Source: Cliona cf. orientalis
Lineage: Eukaryota; Porifera; Demospongiae; Clionaida; Clionaidae
NCBI GenBank assembly: GCA_963930775.1
Contig: OZ005690.1
Coordinates: 2,154,225 to 2,218,224 of the forward strand
Reading direction: 5' to 3'
DNA: 64,000 nucleotides
Position 1 is the first letter of the stretch. Each line of letters begins with the position of its first letter. The position numbers and the translations under genes are program-made. Below, piece after piece: positions 3,486 through 64,000 of this stretch. The notes under the pieces are model-generated. The model was not told the DNA's origin. It saw nothing but the letters and a program-made list of their open reading frames with translations, and made no database searches.

Positions 3486-3488
3486 AAA

Positions 3489-4523
3489 ATGGAGCATTTC
3501 AAACCCCCTGAGCCACTCAGTCTCGAAGGGAACCTGTCGGAAAACTGGAGGAGATGGAAACAACGCTTTGAACTCTATCGCGACGCGAGCGGTATCAGCG
3601 GTAAGGAAGAAAAAACGCAAGCCGCCACTTTGCTACACGTGGTCGGGGCGGAAGCACTGGAAGTGTACAATAATTTCACATGGGACAACGACGGTGATAA
3701 TATGAAGGTGGAACAAATCATGGCTAAGTTTGAAGCATACTGCAACCCAAGGAAGAATGTCACCTGGGAAAGGCACGTGTTTAACAACAGAAACCAATTG
3801 CCGGGTGAGCCCATCGACCACTTCGTGACCGACCTACGCACAAAAGCCAAAACATGCGAATTCGGCACTCTAACCGACAGCCTCATCAGAGATCGCATCG
3901 TTGAAGGCGTGCTTGATGACGGTATACGTAGCAGACTACTCAGAGAGACATCCCTCACCCTCCAGAAGGCTCTCGATATATGCCGATCAAGCGAAGCAGC
4001 CTCCACACAAATGAAGTCACTAACAAATGACAACCCAGGAGCGAGTATCGCAACCATCAACCAAAGAAAGCCAACCTCAAATTCCAGGCACGCAAGCTGT
4101 GGCCGATGTGGAGGACGGCATCCCAAACAATCGTGCCCTGCCATCGGTGCTCAGTGCCACAAATGTGGACTCAAAAATCACTTCAGCAGAATGTGTCGTA
4201 CCAAGGCAAATAGCAAGCGAACAGCACCACAGCAAGCGATTCATCACATTGATGAAGGAAGTTCAGACGAAGACACCGCAAACCTGTATGTCTGCACCAT
4301 AAGCAATAGCAAAGCCAAACAAGATGAAGAATGGAGAGCCACTCTAATTCTCAACGACAGAAGGGTGGTATTCAAATTAGATACAGGCGCGGAATGCAAT
4401 GTTATCTCAAAGGAGGTATACGATTCTGTCAGCAAGCAACCACTTCAAAAAAACAAGGACGAAGCTTGTCGCATTCGGAGGCCACAAGCTAAACCCATGC
4501 GGAAAGGCCCACGTACTATGTGA
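3489..4523 (+). CDS. gag: Gag polyprotein plus start of protease
   Basis: A 344-codon frame starting at the first ATG after the primer-binding site. Residues 1-170 look like a gypsy-type capsid region rich in W, R and E (WRRWKQRFELY near 20-30). Two zinc knuckles follow: C204-x2-C-x3-H-x4-C216 and C223-x2-C-x4-H-x4-C236, which bind the RNA genome. The frame then enters the aspartic protease, with the active-site triad D298-T-G followed by AECNVI. After residue 320 (the A7 run at 4447-4453) the frame no longer resembles protease and stops at 4523. Protease similarity continues in the frame of the pol ORF, one base downstream. Either a programmed frameshift or a one-base indel in the A-run explains this. 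Confidence 0.9.
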   Translation: MEHFKPPEPLSLEGNLSENWRRWKQRFELYRDASGISGKEEKTQAATLLHVVGAEALEVYNNFTWDNDGDNMKVEQIMAKFEAYCNPRKNVTWERHVFNNRNQLPGEPIDHFVTDLRTKAKTCEFGTLTDSLIRDRIVEGVLDDGIRSRLLRETSLTLQKALDICRSSEAASTQMKSLTNDNPGASIATINQRKPTSNSRHASCGRCGGRHPKQSCPAIGAQCHKCGLKNHFSRMCRTKANSKRTAPQQAIHHIDEGSSDEDTANLYVCTISNSKAKQDEEWRATLILNDRRVVFKLDTGAECNVISKEVYDSVSKQPLQKNKDEACRIRRPQAKPMRKGPRTM

Positions 4524-7401
4524 ATACAAGGGCAGGTACAGGGTCCTCGAATTCATGATCGTAGATGGAAATGTCCAAAACGTACTCGGGAAAAGGTCAT
4601 GCTCAGAACTCAAGCTGGTCAAGCGAGTGGACGCTATCGAAAGGTGCATCACAGACGACTATGCCGATGTTTTCCAAGGACTGGGGTGTATCAAGGATGT
4701 TATACACCACATCAAGTTGGACGAAAATGCCAGACCAGTAGTCCACCCACCACGTAGGGTCCCTATAACACTGAGGTCACGAGTAAAGGATGAACTAGAC
4801 CGTATGGAGGCACTCGGTGTGGCTGAGAGAGTGCACGAGCCCTCGGACTGGGTCAATAGTATGGTGACAGTCATCAAACCAAATGGCAAGCTAAGAATCT
4901 GCATAGACCCAAGAGATCTCAATAAGGCAATCAAACGAGAACATTTCCCCACAAAAACCGTCGAAGAAGTGGTAGCGAGAATGCCCAACGCAAAAATCTT
5001 CTCTGTTTTGGATGCCAGTTCAGGATTCTGGCAAATTGAACTCGATCAAGAAAGCTCAAAGCTCTGCACGTTCAACACACCATTTGGCCGCTACAGATTC
5101 AAAAGGCTTCCATTCGGAATTTGCTCCGCACAAGATGTTTTTCAAGATGTGATGTCGGAAATATTCAGTGGTATCGAAGGAGTCGAGGTCATAGTTGATG
5201 ACTTGCTTATTTGGGGTGAAAACCAACAGCAACACGACGAACGCTTAAGACAGGTCCTAGAAAGAGCAAGGCAAAAGAACTTGAAACTCAACAAGGAAAA
5301 GAGCCAAATTGCCCTGGATGAAATCAGCTACATCGGACATGTCCTCAGTAAAGAAGGCCTTAAACCAGATCCTCAGAAAGTACGAGCCATCACTGAAATG
5401 AACCGACCACAGAATAAAGAGGAGTTGCAACGATTCTTAGGAATGGTCACATACGTGGCTAAATTTATTCCCAACTTTTCACAAATTTCCACACCCCTGA
5501 GACAGCTACTAGAGAAGGAAACTGACTGGCACTGGACAGAAATTCAGGAGGAAAGTTTCAACTCGCTGAAGACTTTAGTAACACAATCGCCTGTCCTGAG
5601 ATACTTCGATGTTGGTAAACCTGTCAAGATCTCAGTCGATGCCAGTTCAGGAGGGTTAGGAGCAGTCCTCCTTCAAAATGACCAACCTGTAGCCTATGCA
5701 TCGAAAGCCCTATCACGCAGCCAAATCAACTACGCACAGATCGAGAAAGAGATGCTAGCCGTAGTGTTTGGATGCACACGATTCCACGACTACATATATG
5801 GGCTGAAAGAGATACAAGTCGAAACCGACCACAAGCCACTTGAGTCGATTCTAAAAAAACCACTACACCAAGCACCTATGCGGCTTCAAAGAATGATCCT
5901 ACAAATACAGAAGTACCCTCTGATAGTAACGTACAGACCAGGAAAAGAGTTACTTATTGCAGATACATTGTCAAGAGCATACTTACCTGACGAGGGTGGA
6001 AACATCCTGGATGAGGAACTAGATGTCAACATGATAAACACACTCCCCATATCAGAAAACAAGCTGGAGCTGATTAAGTACGAAACCCTACAGGACCCTC
6101 CACTGCAACAGTTGAAGCAAACAGTGATAACTGGATGGCCGGAAAGAAAGTACGACTGCCCACATACCATCACCCCGTACTGGAATTGCCGTGACGAAAT
6201 ATCCGTGCATGACGGCATCCTGTTTAAAGGTGAACGAGTCATAATCCCGAAGAAACTCCAACCCAAAATGCTACAGATTATACATGGTGCACACTTAGGC
6301 GTAGAAAAATGCAAAAGGCGAGCCAGAGACGTCCTATATTGGCCAGGTATGAATGCACAGGTGGAGGATATGGTTTTAAATTGCCAAGTGTGTGCACAGT
6401 ACAGGAAAAGCAACAGAAAAGAACCACTCTTACCACATGACGTACCTCAGCGACCATGGGCCAAGGTTGGCGGCGACCTTTTTGAAGTCGGAGGACAAAC
6501 ATTCATGATACTAGTTGACTACTATTCAGGATTTTTTGAAATCGATAACCTGAAGCAAACCAAAAGTGAAAACGTAATCAGGTGTTGCAAAGCACAATTC
6601 GCCCGATATGGAATCCCCGACACACTCATCACAGACAACGGTCCACAATTTTCAAGTACGGAATTTAGACAGTTTTCAAACGAATACCAGTTCAAACATA
6701 AAACATCAAGTCCTCATTACCCACAGTCTAACGGAATGGCTGAAAGGGCTGTCCAAACTGCTAAGAGATTGCTAATAAAAGCCAAGGAGGATAAGAAGGA
6801 CCCATACCTCTCACTCCTAGATCTCCGCAACACCCCGAAAAGCAACCTTCTTGGATCGCCAGCACAAAGGCTAATGGGACGACGAACTAAAACGCTGCTC
6901 CCAACTTCTAGCAAACTACTCGAACCCAAAGTCATCAAAACTACAATTGTCAGATCCGAACTACAGGAAGAGAGACGACGACAAAAGCAGTCCTATGATA
7001 GACACGCCAAGGAGTTGACAACTCTCCAACCGGGACAAAATGTTCGAGTTCAATTTGGTAAACAATGGAGACCAGCAGTGGTCACCTCTGTGTCTTCAGA
7101 ACCAAGATCGTACAATATCAAAACACCAGATGGACAAACATACCGCAGAAATAGACGACACCTAATGGAGTCAAAATCAACAGGTTATGAGCAATCAAGT
7201 TTTGATGACAATTGGCCTGGATATGAGCCCCCAGAAAGTGACCCTCCTCCAACGGAGCCAGTTCACGAAGCTCCCGAACAAACTGGTGACAATAGTCCAG
7301 GCTCGAATTCGGTAAACGAAACCAGCCCCCCACTGAGACGCAGCCAGAGGAATACTCATAGGCCAGCCAGGTATGCAGACACTTGGGGTTATAATAACTA
7401 A
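4399..7401 (+). CDS. pol: Pol polyprotein: protease C-part, reverse transcriptase, RNase H, integrase
   Basis: A 1000-codon frame; genuine pol similarity begins near residue 17-20, so the listed ATG is probably not used. Reverse transcriptase has catalytic Asp205 (FSVLDAS) and the VDD box at 266-268. RNase H carries D414 (SVDASS), the E449/E451 region, D477 (ETDHKP) and D522 (ADTLSR). Integrase has an N-terminal zinc motif (H629, H632, C662, C665) and the catalytic D693, D746, E782, with exactly 35 residues between the last two. The C-terminal tail (about 880-1000) is basic, then proline-rich. All catalytic residues are present and the frame is uninterrupted, so the copy could be active if the protease offset is solved in translation. 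Confidence 0.95.
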   Translation: MLSQRRYTILSASNHFKKTRTKLVAFGGHKLNPCGKAHVLCEYKGRYRVLEFMIVDGNVQNVLGKRSCSELKLVKRVDAIERCITDDYADVFQGLGCIKDVIHHIKLDENARPVVHPPRRVPITLRSRVKDELDRMEALGVAERVHEPSDWVNSMVTVIKPNGKLRICIDPRDLNKAIKREHFPTKTVEEVVARMPNAKIFSVLDASSGFWQIELDQESSKLCTFNTPFGRYRFKRLPFGICSAQDVFQDVMSEIFSGIEGVEVIVDDLLIWGENQQQHDERLRQVLERARQKNLKLNKEKSQIALDEISYIGHVLSKEGLKPDPQKVRAITEMNRPQNKEELQRFLGMVTYVAKFIPNFSQISTPLRQLLEKETDWHWTEIQEESFNSLKTLVTQSPVLRYFDVGKPVKISVDASSGGLGAVLLQNDQPVAYASKALSRSQINYAQIEKEMLAVVFGCTRFHDYIYGLKEIQVETDHKPLESILKKPLHQAPMRLQRMILQIQKYPLIVTYRPGKELLIADTLSRAYLPDEGGNILDEELDVNMINTLPISENKLELIKYETLQDPPLQQLKQTVITGWPERKYDCPHTITPYWNCRDEISVHDGILFKGERVIIPKKLQPKMLQIIHGAHLGVEKCKRRARDVLYWPGMNAQVEDMVLNCQVCAQYRKSNRKEPLLPHDVPQRPWAKVGGDLFEVGGQTFMILVDYYSGFFEIDNLKQTKSENVIRCCKAQFARYGIPDTLITDNGPQFSSTEFRQFSNEYQFKHKTSSPHYPQSNGMAERAVQTAKRLLIKAKEDKKDPYLSLLDLRNTPKSNLLGSPAQRLMGRRTKTLLPTSSKLLEPKVIKTTIVRSELQEERRRQKQSYDRHAKELTTLQPGQNVRVQFGKQWRPAVVTSVSSEPRSYNIKTPDGQTYRRNRRHLMESKSTGYEQSSFDDNWPGYEPPESDPPPTEPVHEAPEQTGDNSPGSNSVNETSPPLRRSQRNTHRPARYADTWGYNN

Positions 7402-21027: not shown

Positions 21028-21868
21028 CCGTATAGCGGGAAATTTTCGAGGGTATTAATTTTCGCTGTTTTCGCGGATCAGGGTGAATCCGCGAAATTTT
21101 ATACCTCGAAAATTTCCCGCTATACGGTATGACTTGACGACCCGTTCCTACACTGACTTAGCTCGAGCATGCGCAGTCCCACCAGCACATGATATCAGTA
21201 GAATGGGTGTGGTCGATATAAATCACAAGGCATGCTAAACAGAAACACAGTGTCTAGAGTGCCGGCAAATTTATGTACAAATTTATATTGCCATATGCAG
21301 GAGGGGGCGGGGACTAGGGCTATGTAAGAGTACAGTATTTTATATGGACTTACCGGCACTATAACGCTTAAATTGCGGTGCCGGCACCGGCACTGTAGAC
21401 ACAGCCAAACAGAAAATGCAGCGTTAGCTAGCCATTTTCGAAAGATACTGCCTCCTTTTCGAAGAAAGAGCGAACATATAGCTGACATTTTTCTTGGGAC
21501 GTGTCCAACTATTTTTGAAGACTCGGGTTTTGTGACAGCTATAGCGTAGGGGTTATGGACGTTGCCGGGCTCTCGGATACACGTCAGATTTTCTCCAATT
21601 TCAGCCTCCCAAATTCTTTGATACTCATGGTAGCCACGGATCATCGCCTCCATAACACAGCTTTGTAGTTCAGACATAGCTCGTGTTTAACACTACCTGC
21701 TATGATTTCGACGCACGTACGTATGAAAGAAGAGGGGCGTGGTTTTATTGCATCCAATTTGAGGGTGTGGCTTTGCCTCAGGGCTGATCCTCGAAAATTA
21801 AAACGCGAAATAGTTCAAAATCCCACATCCGCGAAAATAGCTACCCTCGAAAATTTCCCGCTATACGG
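21028..21868 (-). mobile_element. TIR element carrying a HIRAN-domain ORF, copy X
   Basis: CCGTATAGCGGGAAATTTTC at the left and CCCGCTATACGG at the right, with TA outside both (21026-21027, 21869-21870). The left 100 bp (21028-21127) are themselves a complete palindrome ending in the same terminus. The interior matches element Y (8377-9164) in reverse. No transposase; apparently a non-autonomous element that has carried a host-like exon. Confidence 0.75.
21195..21677 (-). CDS. HIRAN-domain fragment ORF
   Basis: From ATG 21677 (minus), 160 codons. Residues 1-78 follow the HIRAN pattern: GYHEYQRIWEAEIGENLTCI, REPGN..NPYAIAV, IVGHVPRKMS, LFLRKGGSI. HIRAN modules recognise DNA 3' ends in HLTF/RAD5-type proteins and occur alone in many invertebrate genes. 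After residue 78 the sequence loses all HIRAN character and ends in a low-similarity tail, so the domain is truncated by the element structure. Sequence before the ATG is shared with copy Y. Function is unlikely without the rest of the fold. Confidence 0.6.
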   Translation of the reverse strand: MSELQSCVMEAMIRGYHEYQRIWEAEIGENLTCIREPGNVHNPYAIAVTKPESSKIVGHVPRKMSAICSLFLRKGGSIFRKWLANAAFSVWLCLQCRCRHRNLSVIVPVSPYKILYSYIALVPAPSCIWQYKFVHKFAGTLDTVFLFSMPCDLYRPHPFY

Positions 21869-22357: not shown

Positions 22358-23843
22358 CTAAATTGACCATTGTTCGTCCGCTTCCTTTTTCCATACGTTG
22401 ATTGTTGCTGCTCGAACACCATACTTTTTTGCCATATCAGCATTAACACTAGCTATATATATAAACCTGGAATGTTGGTGGTCTTGCTTCCATCTCTTAA
22501 GGTACCATTAAATTGCGTGGGCGTGAGGTGGGGGATATGACACCTAAACCACATCAAAGTCATTAGTGAGGTGCATGTTGTGTAACCACGCCCTTTTAAT
22601 TGCACAGGTCTCAGGGGTGTGGCTGCTAGAGCCGGAAGTGTTCATTTAATATCCTCCATGGACCGGAAGCCGAGCCGGAAGGGAGGAGCCAGGCCACGCC
22701 CAAAACAGCCCCACCCTGTTCCCCAAGGACCACCATTCTCAATCAAGTGCCTACTAACCACCGGATGTCCACCGGAAGCCCACAATCAATCGCAATTAAA
22801 ACACACAGCTTCCTCAAGGCCAAAACACACACAAACACTTGGAGGCCGTTCTGCCACACCGCCCACGCAACAGCTCACCTCATTTCCTGTGTGGGCGGAG
22901 TAACAGCACGTCATCGCAACCACATCCGCTTCAAACCATCGTCAGCTTCCGTCCAGCCGTACAGGCCCCTCGATCGCACCGCCGTACAGTGCCTCATTAA
23001 CAGACATGGCCTCACCTTTGACCTCCTGCCACGCCCCCAAAGCCTCCTCGCGGGGTTCAAAGGTCACCACCGCATCCGGGACACGCCCACCTATCGCCGA
23101 GGCCAAGTCCCAGGCGCCGATGTCCAAGCACTGGCCCGTGAAGCCACGCCCAATCGGAAGCAATAAAACCTGCATTAACGCACACGCACACACTCCACAC
23201 AGTGCCAGGAACACGCCCACATGCTTAATTAGGCCTAATAAGCTTTTTTTTTTTTTTTTTTTTTTTTTGTCGTTGCGGTTAATAGTTAAGAAAGAATGCT
23301 TTGATCTTGCTTTGATGTGGGCAATTACCGGCCTTTTCTTCAGGGGCCACTTCCGGTCGCTAATTACACGCGCATAATCATCCCTGGCCGATTCTGGACA
23401 CGCCCACCTTCGACCAAAAGCACTCGTATGGCCTCTTCGGCCACGCCCCTTCACGATTCGCTAATTGAATTAGCCATTCCTGACGCTCACGCCCACGCAA
23501 TTAAATGGTACCTTAACAGATCTAATATGTACGTTATATTTTTCACATAGCGACTCATCACGCTTAAGTAACAATTCAGGATTGTCAAAAAAAGGATTGC
23601 TACTTGTAAATCTTAATGGTAAACAATCCCTAAGCCACCTTCGAACAGTTTGAACACTCATATGGTATTTTGTAGCTAATTCTTTGGGATCAGAGTGAGC
23701 TAAGCTTGCATCAGCATTCAAATCAGATACGAATCTACCTTTTGCTGTACGCCGGTTTGTCTTGGTCTTAGGACCAGGGTTCACTTTTCTATATCGCCAC
23801 TTAGCATCAGGAGTAAATGAAAAAGAGCCATAAATGGTAAAAT
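22358..23843 (-). pseudogene. Helix-turn-helix-repeat protein gene, exon split by a TTAA element
   Basis: The minus-strand coding segment 23843-23513 resumes in the same frame at 22496-22358 (stop TAG) once the TTAA-flanked insertion 22501-23512 and one TTAA are ignored. The peptide is basic at the start (RRTAKGRF) and then has three similar modules: ELATKYHMSVQTVRRW, LCEKYNVHIRSVKRW and DMAKKYGVRAATINVW. Each has the spacing of a helix-turn-helix recognition unit ending in W-K/R. The second module spans the insertion point, which makes the reading convincing. It is probably a DNA-binding protein, host or transposon-derived; the family was not recognised. A possible acceptor (TTTTCTTAAG) lies just before 23843. 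As it stands in this window the gene is broken. Confidence 0.68.
22501..23512 (-). mobile_element. TTAA element, copy 1 (1,012 bp)
   Basis: TIRs GGTACCATTAAATTGCGTGG / CCACGCAATTAAATGGTACC extend about 27 bp with one mismatch. TTAA lies at both borders (22497-22500, 23513-23516), as for piggyBac-type insertion. The interior is richer in GC than its surroundings and has a T-run of over 20 at 23245-23268. Its minus strand is open for 170 codons (23454-22942), with a hydrophobic start and the stretch TFEPREEALGAWQEVKGEAM; the plus strand is open as well. No transposase. Copies are at 51519-52531 and 62989-64000. Confidence 0.85.
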
Positions 23844-51518: not shown

Positions 51519-52531
51519 GGTACCATTAAATTGCGTGGGCGTGAGGTGGGGGATATGACACCTAAACCACATCAAAGTCATTAGTGAGGTGCATGTTGTG
51601 TAACCACGCCCTTTTAATTGCACAGGTCTCAGGGGTGTGGCTGCTAGAGCCGGAAGTGTTCATTTAATATCCTCCATGGACCGGAAGCCGAGCCGGAAGG
51701 GAGGGGCCAGGCCACGCCCAAAACAGCCCCACCCTGTTCCCCGAGGACCACCATTCTCAATCAAGTGCCTACTAACCACCGGATGTCCACCGGAAGCCCA
51801 CAATCAATCCCAATTAAAACACACAGCTTCCTCAAGGCCAAAACACACACAAACACTTGGAGGCCGTTCTGCCACACCGCCCACACAAGAGCTCACCTCA
51901 TTTCCTGTGTGGGCGGAGTAACAACACGTCATCGCAACCACATCCGCTTCAAACCATCGTCAGCTTCCGTCCAGCCGTACAGGCCCCTCGATCGCACCGG
52001 CGTACAGTGCCTCATTAACTGACATGGCCTCACCTTTGACCTCCTGCCACGCCCCCAAAGCCTCCTCGCGGGGTTCAAAGGTCACCACCGCTTCCGGGAC
52101 ACGCCCACCTATCGCCGAGGCCAAGTCCCAGGCGCCGATATCCAAGCACTGGCCCGTGAAGCCACGCCCAATCGGAAGCAATAAAACCTGCATTAACGCA
52201 CACGCACACACTCCACACAGTGCCAGGAACACGCCCACATGCTTAATTAGGCCTAATAAGGCTTTTTTTTTTTTTTTTTTTTTTTTTGTCGTTGCGGTTA
52301 ATAGTTAAGCAAGAATACTTTGATCTTGCTTTGATGTGGGCAATTACCGGCCTTTTCTTCAGGGGCCACTTCCGGTCGCTAATTACACGCGCATAATCAT
52401 CCCTGGCCGATTCTGGACACGCCCACCTTCGACCAAAAGCACTCGTATGGCCTCTTCGGCCACGCCCCTTCACGATTCGCTAATTGAATTAGCCATTCCT
52501 GACGCTCACGCCCACGCAATTAAATGGTACC
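51519..52531 (-). mobile_element. TTAA element, copy 2 (1,013 bp)
   Basis: Same TIRs as copy 1; TTAA at 51515-51518 and 52532-52535. Nearly identical interior with a few substitutions. The minus-strand ORF is 52238-51960 (92 codons) plus an upstream frame 52473-52243 across the A/T run. It sits at the 3' edge of the LINE remnant. Confidence 0.88.
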
Positions 52532-57036: not shown

Positions 57037-60000
57037 TTATGAGACAGTATAATACTCGTTTTGTGCAGTAGTATGTGCTTTGTTTCTTGGGAGGTCTAGA
57101 ATATCTTGATAAATAGGAGGTGGAGATGGCTCTGGTTTGAAAGGAGGAGGGACTTCAGGGGCATCCGGATCAGGAGGAATCACTTTTTTGTTATTTTCCA
57201 GGACATGATAAATGTGTTGAACTTCCTATATGAAACACAAGGTACACAATATAAAGATCCTACTAATCAAAATTTTTTTTGCTAATTTTGCTTCTATATA
57301 GCTACTATATTGTTCAGTTGTTACGTACCTACTATATATCCCACCTAAGTATCCTTTTGTATTATCATAGTATCAGCTATAACTAGGATATTCTCCTGAG
57401 GGAAAGTATGATCCATATTTCCCCTGGTCCCCTGGCAATCATTCTGACCAATCGGAGTCATTGTTTACTTCATGCCAGCAATGACCACACTGCCATACCT
57501 AGCACCTTTAATTTGCATGTGCTGGAGTACTTAATACTACAGTAGCTATTTAGTACATCTACAGCATAGGCAGTAGTACGGTGGCCGTACAGTAGACATT
57601 GTTTACACAGATACAGGAACTGGATGGGCTAACTTACATGAGCAGGAATTCAATGATGATCTACATGCATGCATGCAGATGGTTATAGCTAGCTAGCTCA
57701 GTAGTCTTTGTAGCTGATCCACACAGTCTATCTACGCTTAGCTTGTTGTATTCATGGGAAGCCAGTGAGTACTGGTTAATTCAATACTTGAGTAGCGATT
57801 GTTCAGTGAAGAGCCAAAGAATCAAACTACCTTCTCTTCTTGTTTCTCTGCTAGTTTATTTACTGTGCCAGTTACTATGGAGGACTGTGCATGTGCACTA
57901 TACTACGCGCACCGCATCGTGGACCAATCAGGGTGGGATATAGTAGATATAGCATGGTTGCCAGGGATTTATTGCAACGTAAACTACCCTAACTTGTCCT
58001 TGGGCTGCGCCCTCTTGACTCGGGTCGGTTACTTTCATAAATCCCTGGCCCCATGCTATAACTAGCTATGTGTAACATAAATCAGTTTTATATACCTTAC
58101 TGTCTGTGACATCAGCATACGTGTTGTTGATGGTCTCTTCTACACAGTTATTTTTAGAGGTGACATCATCAACAGTGCTCTTGACTCTATAATCAGTACC
58201 CTAATTCATGAGTAACATAAATTTTATTACTGTATATGCATATAAAATATAAAATTCATAAAAATTTAATTATTCATGCTTTACTGTATAATTGCTGATT
58301 CTTGTATCTACAGGCTAATTTCCAACCTATAAATCCACCTTGATAATTATGAGCTGGCTATTACAATAATAATATTATTGTGTTTGTTTCACATACATAC
58401 ACTGGTCTTGTTAGGTAAATCATAAAGTCCAATGGCTTGTTGTGATTCTTCACTTTCTGTTTGTTCCTTTGATTCAGCAGAATTTTTATCAGTACATATT
58501 CCAGCCTTTGATCTATAGATTAATTGTAATAATTATTTTGCCAACACATTCTAAATTCATTTACCTTTTTCTGAATAAAAGTATAGCAAACATTAATATT
58601 GCAATGATTGATAATACAATAAGTATTGTAGGAACAGTGATGAACAGCAGCATTGTAACAGTTGTAGTTCCTATGAAACATTGAGACACATGATACTGAA
58701 AAGCTAGCTTCACACATCTTCCAAATTATTATAAAAACTCATGAACTCACCCTTAGATGATTCATTCGCTGGTGAACAAATTATACTGTTATTAAACAGT
58801 ATCCTGCCACTAATAGCCAACTTTCCAATTGACCCATCTGATTCAATGTCAAAACCAAAAATCTCAATGACATCTTTCATTGGTGGACAAGTGACATTCT
58901 TCACCAATTCAGAATGAACTTCATTTGTTAAGTTCAATGTAATATTGCCTGATCTCCCCACTAGTACCACCATACATCCTTTAGCATTGGAACCAGAGAT
59001 TAAGTCACACTGGACAATAATGATATCATTGTTTTTATCATAAATTGCAACTATTTCCTGAACATCAGTAGTATCTATGATTATTACAATAATAAAAATG
59101 ATGCACGTTATAAAGATAATTCAGGACTTACAAAAATATGTGTAGGTAGAAGGGACATTACCAACTATGTTTGCAATCAGGACTCGAAAGAAATATTTTC
59201 TATTTTCCAGTAAATTACCAATCGCAATGGACTGAATCACATGTGGTTTACTGGAATGTTGTATTACTTTAGATGCTAAACCTTGAACCTCCAGTGTGTA
59301 GTTCACAGGATAATCCTCACAGAACATGTCAGACTTTGCTCCATGGAAGTTAAAAGCAATCAACTAGCTATAATAAAGTATAAAATTCTTACAATGCTTA
59401 CCTCAAATGACACATTAAGTTTAATTTGTCCGGCTATCTTAATCACAGAGTATGTGAGAGAAGCATTCAACTGCTCAATATCAGGCAGAGAAGGTAGTAT
59501 TCTACTGATCACAGAGCTAGGTACACTGCAATCAGATCCAGTGTAAGTGGCACCAACATAAGTAGCAGTGACAGAGAAATTGTAGCTCTCACAAGGTGGG
59601 GCACCTTCGGGGGCTGTGAAGCTATAGTGATGCTTAGTTGTATTAATGACTTTCCTGTTTGAGCCATAAGTAATAGTCAAAGTAGAGTTTTGTACCAAAT
59701 TCATGGTTACTGTAGAGAGTCCAGTCCAAGAAATGTTTAGTACACTTGAGTCCACATCAACAATGTCTAAGACAATGGCTATTGGCTCTGAAAGAAAAGA
59801 GTTAATAACACTAAATTCTCTACATGCAAAGGAAATATGCAAATTAAACAAACCATATACTCGTAATTTTATCTCCTCTGGCATCAATTTGCCTATGTAT
59901 GTGCACCTTATCACAGTACCATTGTTCACATTTGTGTTATTTATTTCAATCACTGCTGAAGGTGAATTTGATATTTCATAAAGATCATAACTACTGAGTA

Positions 60001-60314
60001 TATTCCTCTGTTCACGTTCATCACTGAACTCTATATCAGCAAAAGTAGTATTTGCTATGTCCACTTCAAAGTATGGCTGTGTAATGCCTTTATATGCACA
60101 GTTGATGATGGTGGTTGAGTTCTGTGGCACAAGTACATAAGACATTGGCCATGGTGGCTGAGATACTGTAACTAAGGTTACACGTATAGAGAAGTACGGT
60201 TGATAATGGTTTGAGAAATTATATTTGCTTACCTCTACATGCTGATTGACATAGTTCCCACTCTACTAAAAGTAAAACTACAACGATTAATAGTTTGGAG
60301 TAGACCAAAAGCAT
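57037..60314 (-). CDS. Type I membrane receptor: signal peptide, Ig-like, FN3, TM, tyrosine-motif tail
   Basis: Nine exons (minus): 60314-60233, 60165-59854, 59787-59402, 59363-59132, 59074-58751, 58670-58565, 58512-58401, 58200-58096, 57225-57037. All have GT/AG borders and agreeing phases; 1,848 nt, 615 residues. Residues 1-24 form a signal peptide. An Ig-like segment follows (about 28-131, cysteines in INCAY and IRCTY), then an FN3 domain (132 to about 235, LNISWTG..YNFSVTA) and a second FN3-like region to about 337. A cysteine-bearing extracellular module runs to 445, then a hydrophobic helix at about 451-475 and a 135-residue cytoplasmic tail. The tail has YxxV/L/I sites at Y546 (YADV), Y559 (YHVL) and Y592 (YQDI), plus a proline-rich stretch (570-590). 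It is probably a cell-surface adhesion or signalling receptor docking SH2 proteins; the ligand is unknown. Intron 3 is only 38 bp. Intron 8 contains a MITE. Confidence 0.8.
57947..58064. repeat. Small foldback in receptor intron 8
   Basis: TATAGCATGGTTGCCAGGGA plus TTTAT is mirrored by ATAAATCCCTGGCCCCATGC plus TATA. Confidence 0.65.
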
Positions 60315-62988: not shown

Positions 62989-64000
62989 GGTAGCATCAAA
63001 GTGCGTGGGCGTGAGCGTCAGGATTGGCTAATTCAATTAGCGAATCGTGAAGGGGCGTGGCCGAAGAGCCCATACGAGTGCTTTTGGTCGAAGGTGGGCG
63101 TGTCCAGAATCGGCCAGGGATGATTATGCGCGTGTAATTAGCGACCGGAAGTGGCCCCTGAAGAAAACACCGGTAATTGCCCACTTCAAAGCAAGATCAA
63201 AGCATTCTTTCTTAACTATTAACCGCAACGACTTAAAAAAAAAAAAAAAAAAAAAAAAAAGCTGATTAGGCCTAATTAAGCATGTGGGCGTGTTCCTGGC
63301 ACTGTGTGGAGTGTGTGCGTGTGCGTTAATGCAGGTTTTATTGCTTCCGATTGGGCGTGGCTTCACGGGCCAGTGCTTGGACATGGGCGCCTGGGACTTG
63401 GCCTCGGCGATAGGTGGGCGTGTCCCGGAAGCGGTGGTGACCTTTGAACCCCGCGAGGAGGCTTTGGGGGCGTGGCAGGAGGTCAAAGGTGAGGCCATGT
63501 CTGTTAATGAGGCACTGTACGGCGGTGCGATCGAGGGGCCCGTACGGCTGGACGGAAACTGACGATGGTTTGAAGCGGATGTGGTTGCGATGACGTGTTG
63601 TTACTCCGCCCACACAGGAAATGAGGTGAGCTCTTGCGTGGGCGGTGTGGCAGAACGGCCTCCAAGTGTTTGTGTGTGTTTTGGCCTTGAGGAAGCTGTG
63701 TGTTTTAATTGGGATTGATTGTGGGCTTCCGGTGGACATCCGGTGGTTAGTAGGCACTTGATTGAGAATGGTGGTCCTTGGGGAACAGGGTGGGGCTGTT
63801 TTGGGCGTGGCCTGGCCCCTCCCTTCCGGCTCGGCTTCCGGTCCATGGAGGATATTAAATGAACACTTCCGGCTCTAGCAGCCACACCCCTGAGACCTGT
63901 GCAATTAAAAGGGCGTGGTTACACAACATGCACCTCACTAATGACTTTGATGTGGTTTAGGTGTCATATCCCCACCTCACGCCCACGCAATTTAATGGTA
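62989..64000 (+). mobile_element. TTAA element, copy 3, opposite orientation, cut by the window end
   Basis: TTAA at 62985-62988, then GGTAGCATCAAAGTGCGTGG (a diverged TIR). The window ends at GGTA, two bases short of the expected right terminus. The 92-codon ORF is on the plus strand here (63284-63562) and differs from copies 1 and 2 at a few codons. An A-run lies at 63236-63260. Confidence 0.85.

Follow-up and report, generated by a model that had tools for sequence, protein, structure and literature searches.

The window, that is, the whole 64,000-nucleotide stretch of DNA that was analysed, carries on its minus strand, from 60314 to 57037, a gene of nine exons joined in a single open frame across eight GT-AG introns of 52–870 nt. 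The nine in-phase exons given in the preliminary description are thereby borne out. The encoded protein (here the focal protein) comprises a signal peptide, an Ig-like domain, an FN3-like domain, an FN3 domain, a conserved fourth domain, one transmembrane segment and a tail of 137 aa. Exon 1 (60233..60314) supplies the ATG and the signal peptide, recognised in the sequence by its hydrophobic start. Exon 2 (59854..60165, phase 1-1) would encode the Ig-like domain 1, the evidence for which is weak. Sequence and family comparison assign to exon 3 (59402..59787) the FN3-like domain 2 together with the beginning of FN3 domain 3, and the remainder of domain 3 falls, according to relatives and profiles, in exon 4 (59132..59333). 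The family alignment places in exon 5 (58751..59074) the conserved domain 4, for which no known relative was found, and exon 6 (58565..58670) holds the transmembrane segment, identified by sequence and hydrophobicity, and the residues RKR.

The tail is spread over three exons. A motif scan of tails located Y501 of YDLP (58413–58424) in exon 7 (58401..58512). Exon 8 (58096..58200), which is phase 0 at both ends and was set by family exon borders and alignment, contains Y512 (58189–58191, in YRVK) and Y536 of YADV (58108–58119). Exon 9 (57037..57225), recognised by a family last-exon motif and alignment, contains Y549 of YHVL (57199–57210), Y582 of YQDI (57100–57111), the adjacent Y601 and Y602 of YYTV (two Tyr codons at 57049–57054, read from the sequence) and the stop. 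The preliminary description had overlooked Y501, Y512 and Y601/Y602, as well as the second FN3-type domain and the fourth domain of about 106 aa. Intron 2 (59788–59853, minus strand) is 66 nt long and has no in-frame stop, such that its retention would add 22 residues with the frame unbroken.

The position of the exon 4 acceptor affects both protein length and residue numbering. An acceptor at 59363 underlies the 616 codons (615 aa and stop) claimed earlier and leaves an intron of only 38 nt, whereas the acceptor at 59333 gives a 68-nt intron and a protein of 605 aa. In 12 of the 15 relative loci compared, an AG precedes a conserved Cys by exactly five residues, just as it does at 59333 in the focal gene (SDMFC), 30 nt further on than the alternative; the three loci in which this border differs (L043, L044 and L058) are near copies of each other. 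Because the relatives place the matching border there, we adopted 59333 and discarded the 616-codon model. It follows that residue numbers after exon 3 drop by ten, and Y546, Y559 and Y592 become Y536, Y549 and Y582. The motifs YADV, YHVL and YQDI, and the nine residues between the first two, stand as originally reported.

Elsewhere in the window, retrotransposon-like frames with reverse transcriptase, RNase H and integrase domains occupy 3486–7398 on the plus strand, and a HIRAN domain frame (E 5.4e-8) lies at 21198–21686 on the minus strand. A similar repeated element, judged by translated frames, is present in three copies (22630–23460, 51648–52305 and 63127–63874).

By our own grouping, a protein search of the organism's own genome (216.8 Mb) located the focal domains at about 35 other places, a count that excludes a weak match on contig C9. 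Thirty-two of these are on contig C1, mostly within 14.28–17.41 Mb, and there is one each on C2, C3 and C4; the C2 place is about 5 kb upstream of the focal gene on the same strand. The relatives share exon borders, domains and tail tyrosines with it beyond what chance would give. Judged by its sequence, the focal gene is a member of a lineage-expanded, clustered family.

A final tail exon that carries the motif [EDQN]HxY[HFSR][VT]LE is present in 13 of the 20 loci examined (L039, L042, L043, L044, L045, L047, L048, L050, L051, L052, L056, L057 and L058) and was not found within the stretch examined at the other seven (L040, L041, L046, L049, L053, L054 and L055). At the DNA level, a strict form of the motif, which does not match the focal gene itself, occurs 19 times genome-wide against none for the reversed control, and eight of the 19 matches are in the focal family. 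A looser tail pattern matched 97 times and its reversed control 34 times, which is too noisy outside clusters. By eye, L054 has a different tail, rich in tyrosines, in which Y[QDE][DE]I motifs recur, and L041 contains a reverse-transcriptase-like frame.

The full-length focal protein matched no Pfam family above its cut-off and had no meaningful relative in PDB, where one match reached E 1. The domains were compared one by one through family alignments, which took in 18 of 18 relatives for A1 and, once near copies and incomplete rows had been set aside by eye, 14 of 19 for A2, 9 of 15 for A3 and 11 of 19 for A4. Domain 3 is the clearest case: its family profile matches Dscam (3.8e-7), RPTP-S (1.1e-6) and also NCAM2 in PDB (E range 3.8e-7 to 1.3e-6), and Pfam fn3 is found in six of ten members with a best E of 3e-4, the focal copy scoring 0.035, below the curated cut-off. 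By these profile matches domain 3 is an FN3 domain. Domain 2 appears weakly FN3-like, with fn3 matches in three of 15 members (best E 0.011) and one match to the Torso FN3 (0.0015); its profile had no match in PDB. In domain 1, a Trp and a Cys pair are invariant in all 19 members. Pfam Ig_3 was matched weakly in one of the 19 (E 0.081), and 15 of the 16 PDB matches with E<1 to the domain 1 profile are TCR alpha chains, likewise weak (E 0.28–0.97). A single-sequence fold of exons 2–3, a low-confidence model with a mean pLDDT of 52.6, has two Cys in strands which, by a count made by eye, are placed like B and F. Together, profile and predicted fold weakly suggest that domain 1 is Ig-like. Pfam and PDB profile searches returned nothing convincing for the family-conserved domain 4. 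Thus, of the domains claimed earlier, the hydrophobic N-terminus, the single further hydrophobic segment and FN3 (through the family profile of domain 3) hold, and Ig is weakly supported.

Thirteen tails could be modelled, 12 from relatives and that of the focal gene; the relatives' gene models came from a custom predictor and were compared with exon ends common to the family, and tail starts were set by eye, the transmembrane segment being misread in the L044 model. Y[DE]xP is present in all 13 tails compared with 7–25% of shuffled tails. A canonical ITAM is present in six of the 13 (L045, L048, L050, L051, L056 and L057), which form about three subgroups by eye and hence are not independent, or in five of 13 without L057, whose penultimate exon was placed by hand; shuffles gave 0.25–2.3%, those of the six tails 0.35–2.3% each. 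L048 was given the family acceptor as its border, and the predictor's own spacing of 8 is likewise canonical. In these relatives the two halves of the ITAM lie on either side of a phase 0 junction: YxxL closes the penultimate exon, and YHVL, YFTL or YSTL opens the last one. Three further tails (L043, L044 and L058) read YAML-x5-YHVL, with a spacing of 5, and in another three (L039, L042 and L052) the first half (YxxL) is missing, no such penultimate exon having been found. At L047, which is outside the 13 because its upstream tail is unmodelled, YAKL joined by eye to YHTL would make an ITAM with x7. The focal YADV-x9-YHVL is the least canonical among the tails with both halves: it fails the strict ITAM pattern (YxxL/I x6-8 YxxL/I) on both the x9 spacing and the +3 Val. 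The ITAM-like character claimed for the focal gene therefore does not hold for that gene itself, but a canonical ITAM does occupy the equivalent place in the relatives named above. The strict ITIM pattern (S/I/V/LxYxxI/V/L) matches the focal protein at residues 3 and 242 alone, neither of them in the tail, and a full-protein Pfam scan at E up to 1 revealed no kinase or phosphatase domain.

We consider it somewhat probable (roughly 0.55) that the focal gene encodes a type I phosphotyrosine docking receptor of an expanded family, in which the focal copy carries a degenerate ITAM. The degeneracy could also mean that the focal copy is a decaying gene that has lost its own signalling while the family still signals, as among the tails with both halves it alone has a +3 residue that breaks the ITAM consensus, and its spacing is the longest. 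We regard such decay as very unlikely, given that all nine exons are open, splice sites are intact, exon borders are kept, and Y501, Y512, Y536, Y549 and Y582 are all retained.

The phosphotyrosine docking reading also draws on conservation around the exon 8/9 junction. An alignment of seven tails, representing half of the 14 tail-bearing genes (13 loci and the focal gene), has six invariant columns: Y, Y, H, Y, L and E. It omits L044 and L058 (close to L043), L045 (close to L050), L047, L039, L042 and L052. Y512, Y536 and Y549, which are all three focal tyrosines across that junction, are invariant in 7/7 aligned tails. Taken with Y[DE]xP in 13/13 tails, this supports the earlier proposal of a tyrosine-motif receptor, the comparison being with relatives in its own genome. 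Conservation of the tyrosines, whose lack in related species the preliminary description had named as a refutation, is seen here among paralogues within this genome.

Sorting signals of the YxxPhi form provide the main rival account, in which the tyrosines would engage clathrin adaptors without phosphorylation and the protein would serve as an adhesion or uptake receptor. YADV, YHVL, YQDI and YYTV all fit YxxPhi, and a tail devoid of a catalytic domain agrees with such a role. Nevertheless, Y[DE]xP, common to every modelled tail, does not fit YxxPhi, the paired spacing of 6–7 in six tails is not required by sorting, and the conserved Glu after YHVL is left unexplained. On balance, we find a sorting function unlikely.

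Docking of phosphotyrosines presupposes SH2 partners, and the genome yielded 103 SH2 matches, several within frames that also hold a tyrosine kinase. An SH2 pair at L059 matches PTPN11/SHP-2 (E 3.9e-58), and a second SHP-2-like locus (L060) was judged by eye. A Crk-like gene at C8:4202476-4210523 is represented by four ordered exon hits with 54–62% identity. Searches of the genome with Syk, both whole and as its SH2 part alone, found no gene that clearly combines both Syk SH2 domains with a kinase; since 69 of 1594 candidates were scored in the whole-protein search, this negative falls short of proof of absence. Weak ordered SH2 pairs are present on C16 (1204981-1223023, with matches at 1222799, E 0.0026, and at 1204981, E 3.5e-5, separated by 18 kb) and on C19 (5510920-5515695, with matches at 5510920, E 0.005, and at 5515483, E 0.67); C9:308677-308967 is another candidate SH2 place, and the genome may contain a Shark-type kinase. 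On the minus strand of C17 (2316556-2325288), outside the window, a 2925-aa open frame has nine consecutive tyrosine-kinase-like matches and an SH2 match, as in a tandem multi-kinase.

The same set of partners bears on whether the receptor might be inhibitory, with single phosphotyrosines and the pair recruiting SHP-2 and so damping other signals. SHP-2 in the genome, with the second similar locus, and the failure of the genome search to find a clear Syk-type gene are in line with this proposal. The focal tail, however, has no ITIM consensus, and relatives have YxxL pairs at ITAM spacing, which together make an inhibitory function quite unlikely.

As a phosphotyrosine docking receptor, the focal protein might work as follows. 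Its ectodomain (Ig-like, FN3-like, FN3 and domain 4) would bind a ligand or a neighbouring cell, and clustering would lead Src-type kinases to phosphorylate the tail tyrosines. The Y[DE]xP site, YDLP in the focal gene, could then recruit a Crk- or Nck-type SH2 adaptor. SH2 domains of the Crk/Nck type prefer Y[DE]xP, and it is this motif preference, along with the Crk-like gene in the genome, that suggests Crk-type reading of the site. A tandem-SH2 protein would be drawn to the Y536/Y549 pair at the exon 8/9 junction, and the only such protein clearly identified in the genome is SHP-2. YQDI could take a further SH2 protein. Because the focal copy is off the ITAM consensus, it may signal mainly via single sites.

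Among known receptors, Hydractinia Alr proteins form a clustered multigene family with a single transmembrane segment and Ig domains that are hard to detect by sequence. Candidate genes for allorecognition in this cnidarian are reported to carry ITAM and ITIM motifs (PMC12065747). By description, Alr and the focal family would be alike in clustering, ITAM motifs and a single transmembrane segment. The fester co-receptors (FcoR) of Botryllus have 520–610 aa, Ig domains, one transmembrane segment and a long tail with an ITIM, a hemITAM or the tyrosine core motif YxxI/L/V (PMC12065747). They resemble the focal protein, so far as they are described there, in size, an Ig-type domain, the single transmembrane segment and the long tyrosine-motif tail, but they have sushi and C2-type Ig domains, whereas in the focal protein FN3 domains are combined with paired tyrosines and a Y[DE]xP site in the tail. 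It is by analogy with Hydractinia Alr and Botryllus FcoR that a role in immunity or allorecognition might be proposed.

Draper and MEGF10 are also single-pass receptors with an ITAM, and in the fly a Src kinase serves as writer of the Draper ITAM, the tandem-SH2 kinase Shark as its reader and the SHP-2-type Corkscrew as its eraser (PMC8092387, PMC4503800). Their EMI/EGF-type ectodomain and NPxY tail, as given in the available parts of these papers, were not seen in the focal protein by Pfam or in its tail sequence. Another invertebrate protein, oyster CgIgIT2, combines an Ig ectodomain, a transmembrane segment and an ITAM (PMC11999971); it has five Ig domains, with no FN3 mentioned in the accessible part of its description, in contrast to one Ig-like domain plus FN3 domains in the focal protein. 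Among the matches listed in a literature search by titles and abstract openings, a scope that mostly leaves out subscription journals, no sponge ITAM receptor was described.

ITAM-type receptors are thus on record, in the portions of the literature consulted, from flies, oyster, a cnidarian and a tunicate (hemITAM) (PMC4503800, PMC11999971, PMC12065747). Printed accounts of the origin of Syk, as far as their available parts show, conflict: the kinase is dated to vertebrates (PMC8662651), fly Shark is termed a Syk homologue (PMC4503800), and a tunicate is reported to express syk-family kinases and Hydractinia to encode associated signalling molecules (PMC12065747). That the animal belongs to an early lineage, as first proposed, is plausible, and its gene content suggests a sponge. 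It is possible, if doubtful, that such an early-branching animal, probably a sponge, has a large Ig/FN3 family with genuine ITAMs across an exon junction beside Crk-type YDxP and no classical Syk, the reader in its place being SHP-2, Crk or a Shark-like protein. If this were true, ITAM-type receptor signalling would predate Syk. A clustered family bearing conserved paired tyrosines in a probable sponge, in a genome where SHP-2 and a Crk-like gene are present and no clear Syk was found, would allow a direct test of how receptor, adaptor, phosphatase and kinase were assembled one after another. In addition, outside the window, the looser tail pattern matches 23 times in a dense cluster on the minus strand of C13:693061-782333, with some matches 66–96 bases apart; a further group of genes that have a comparable tail motif lies there.
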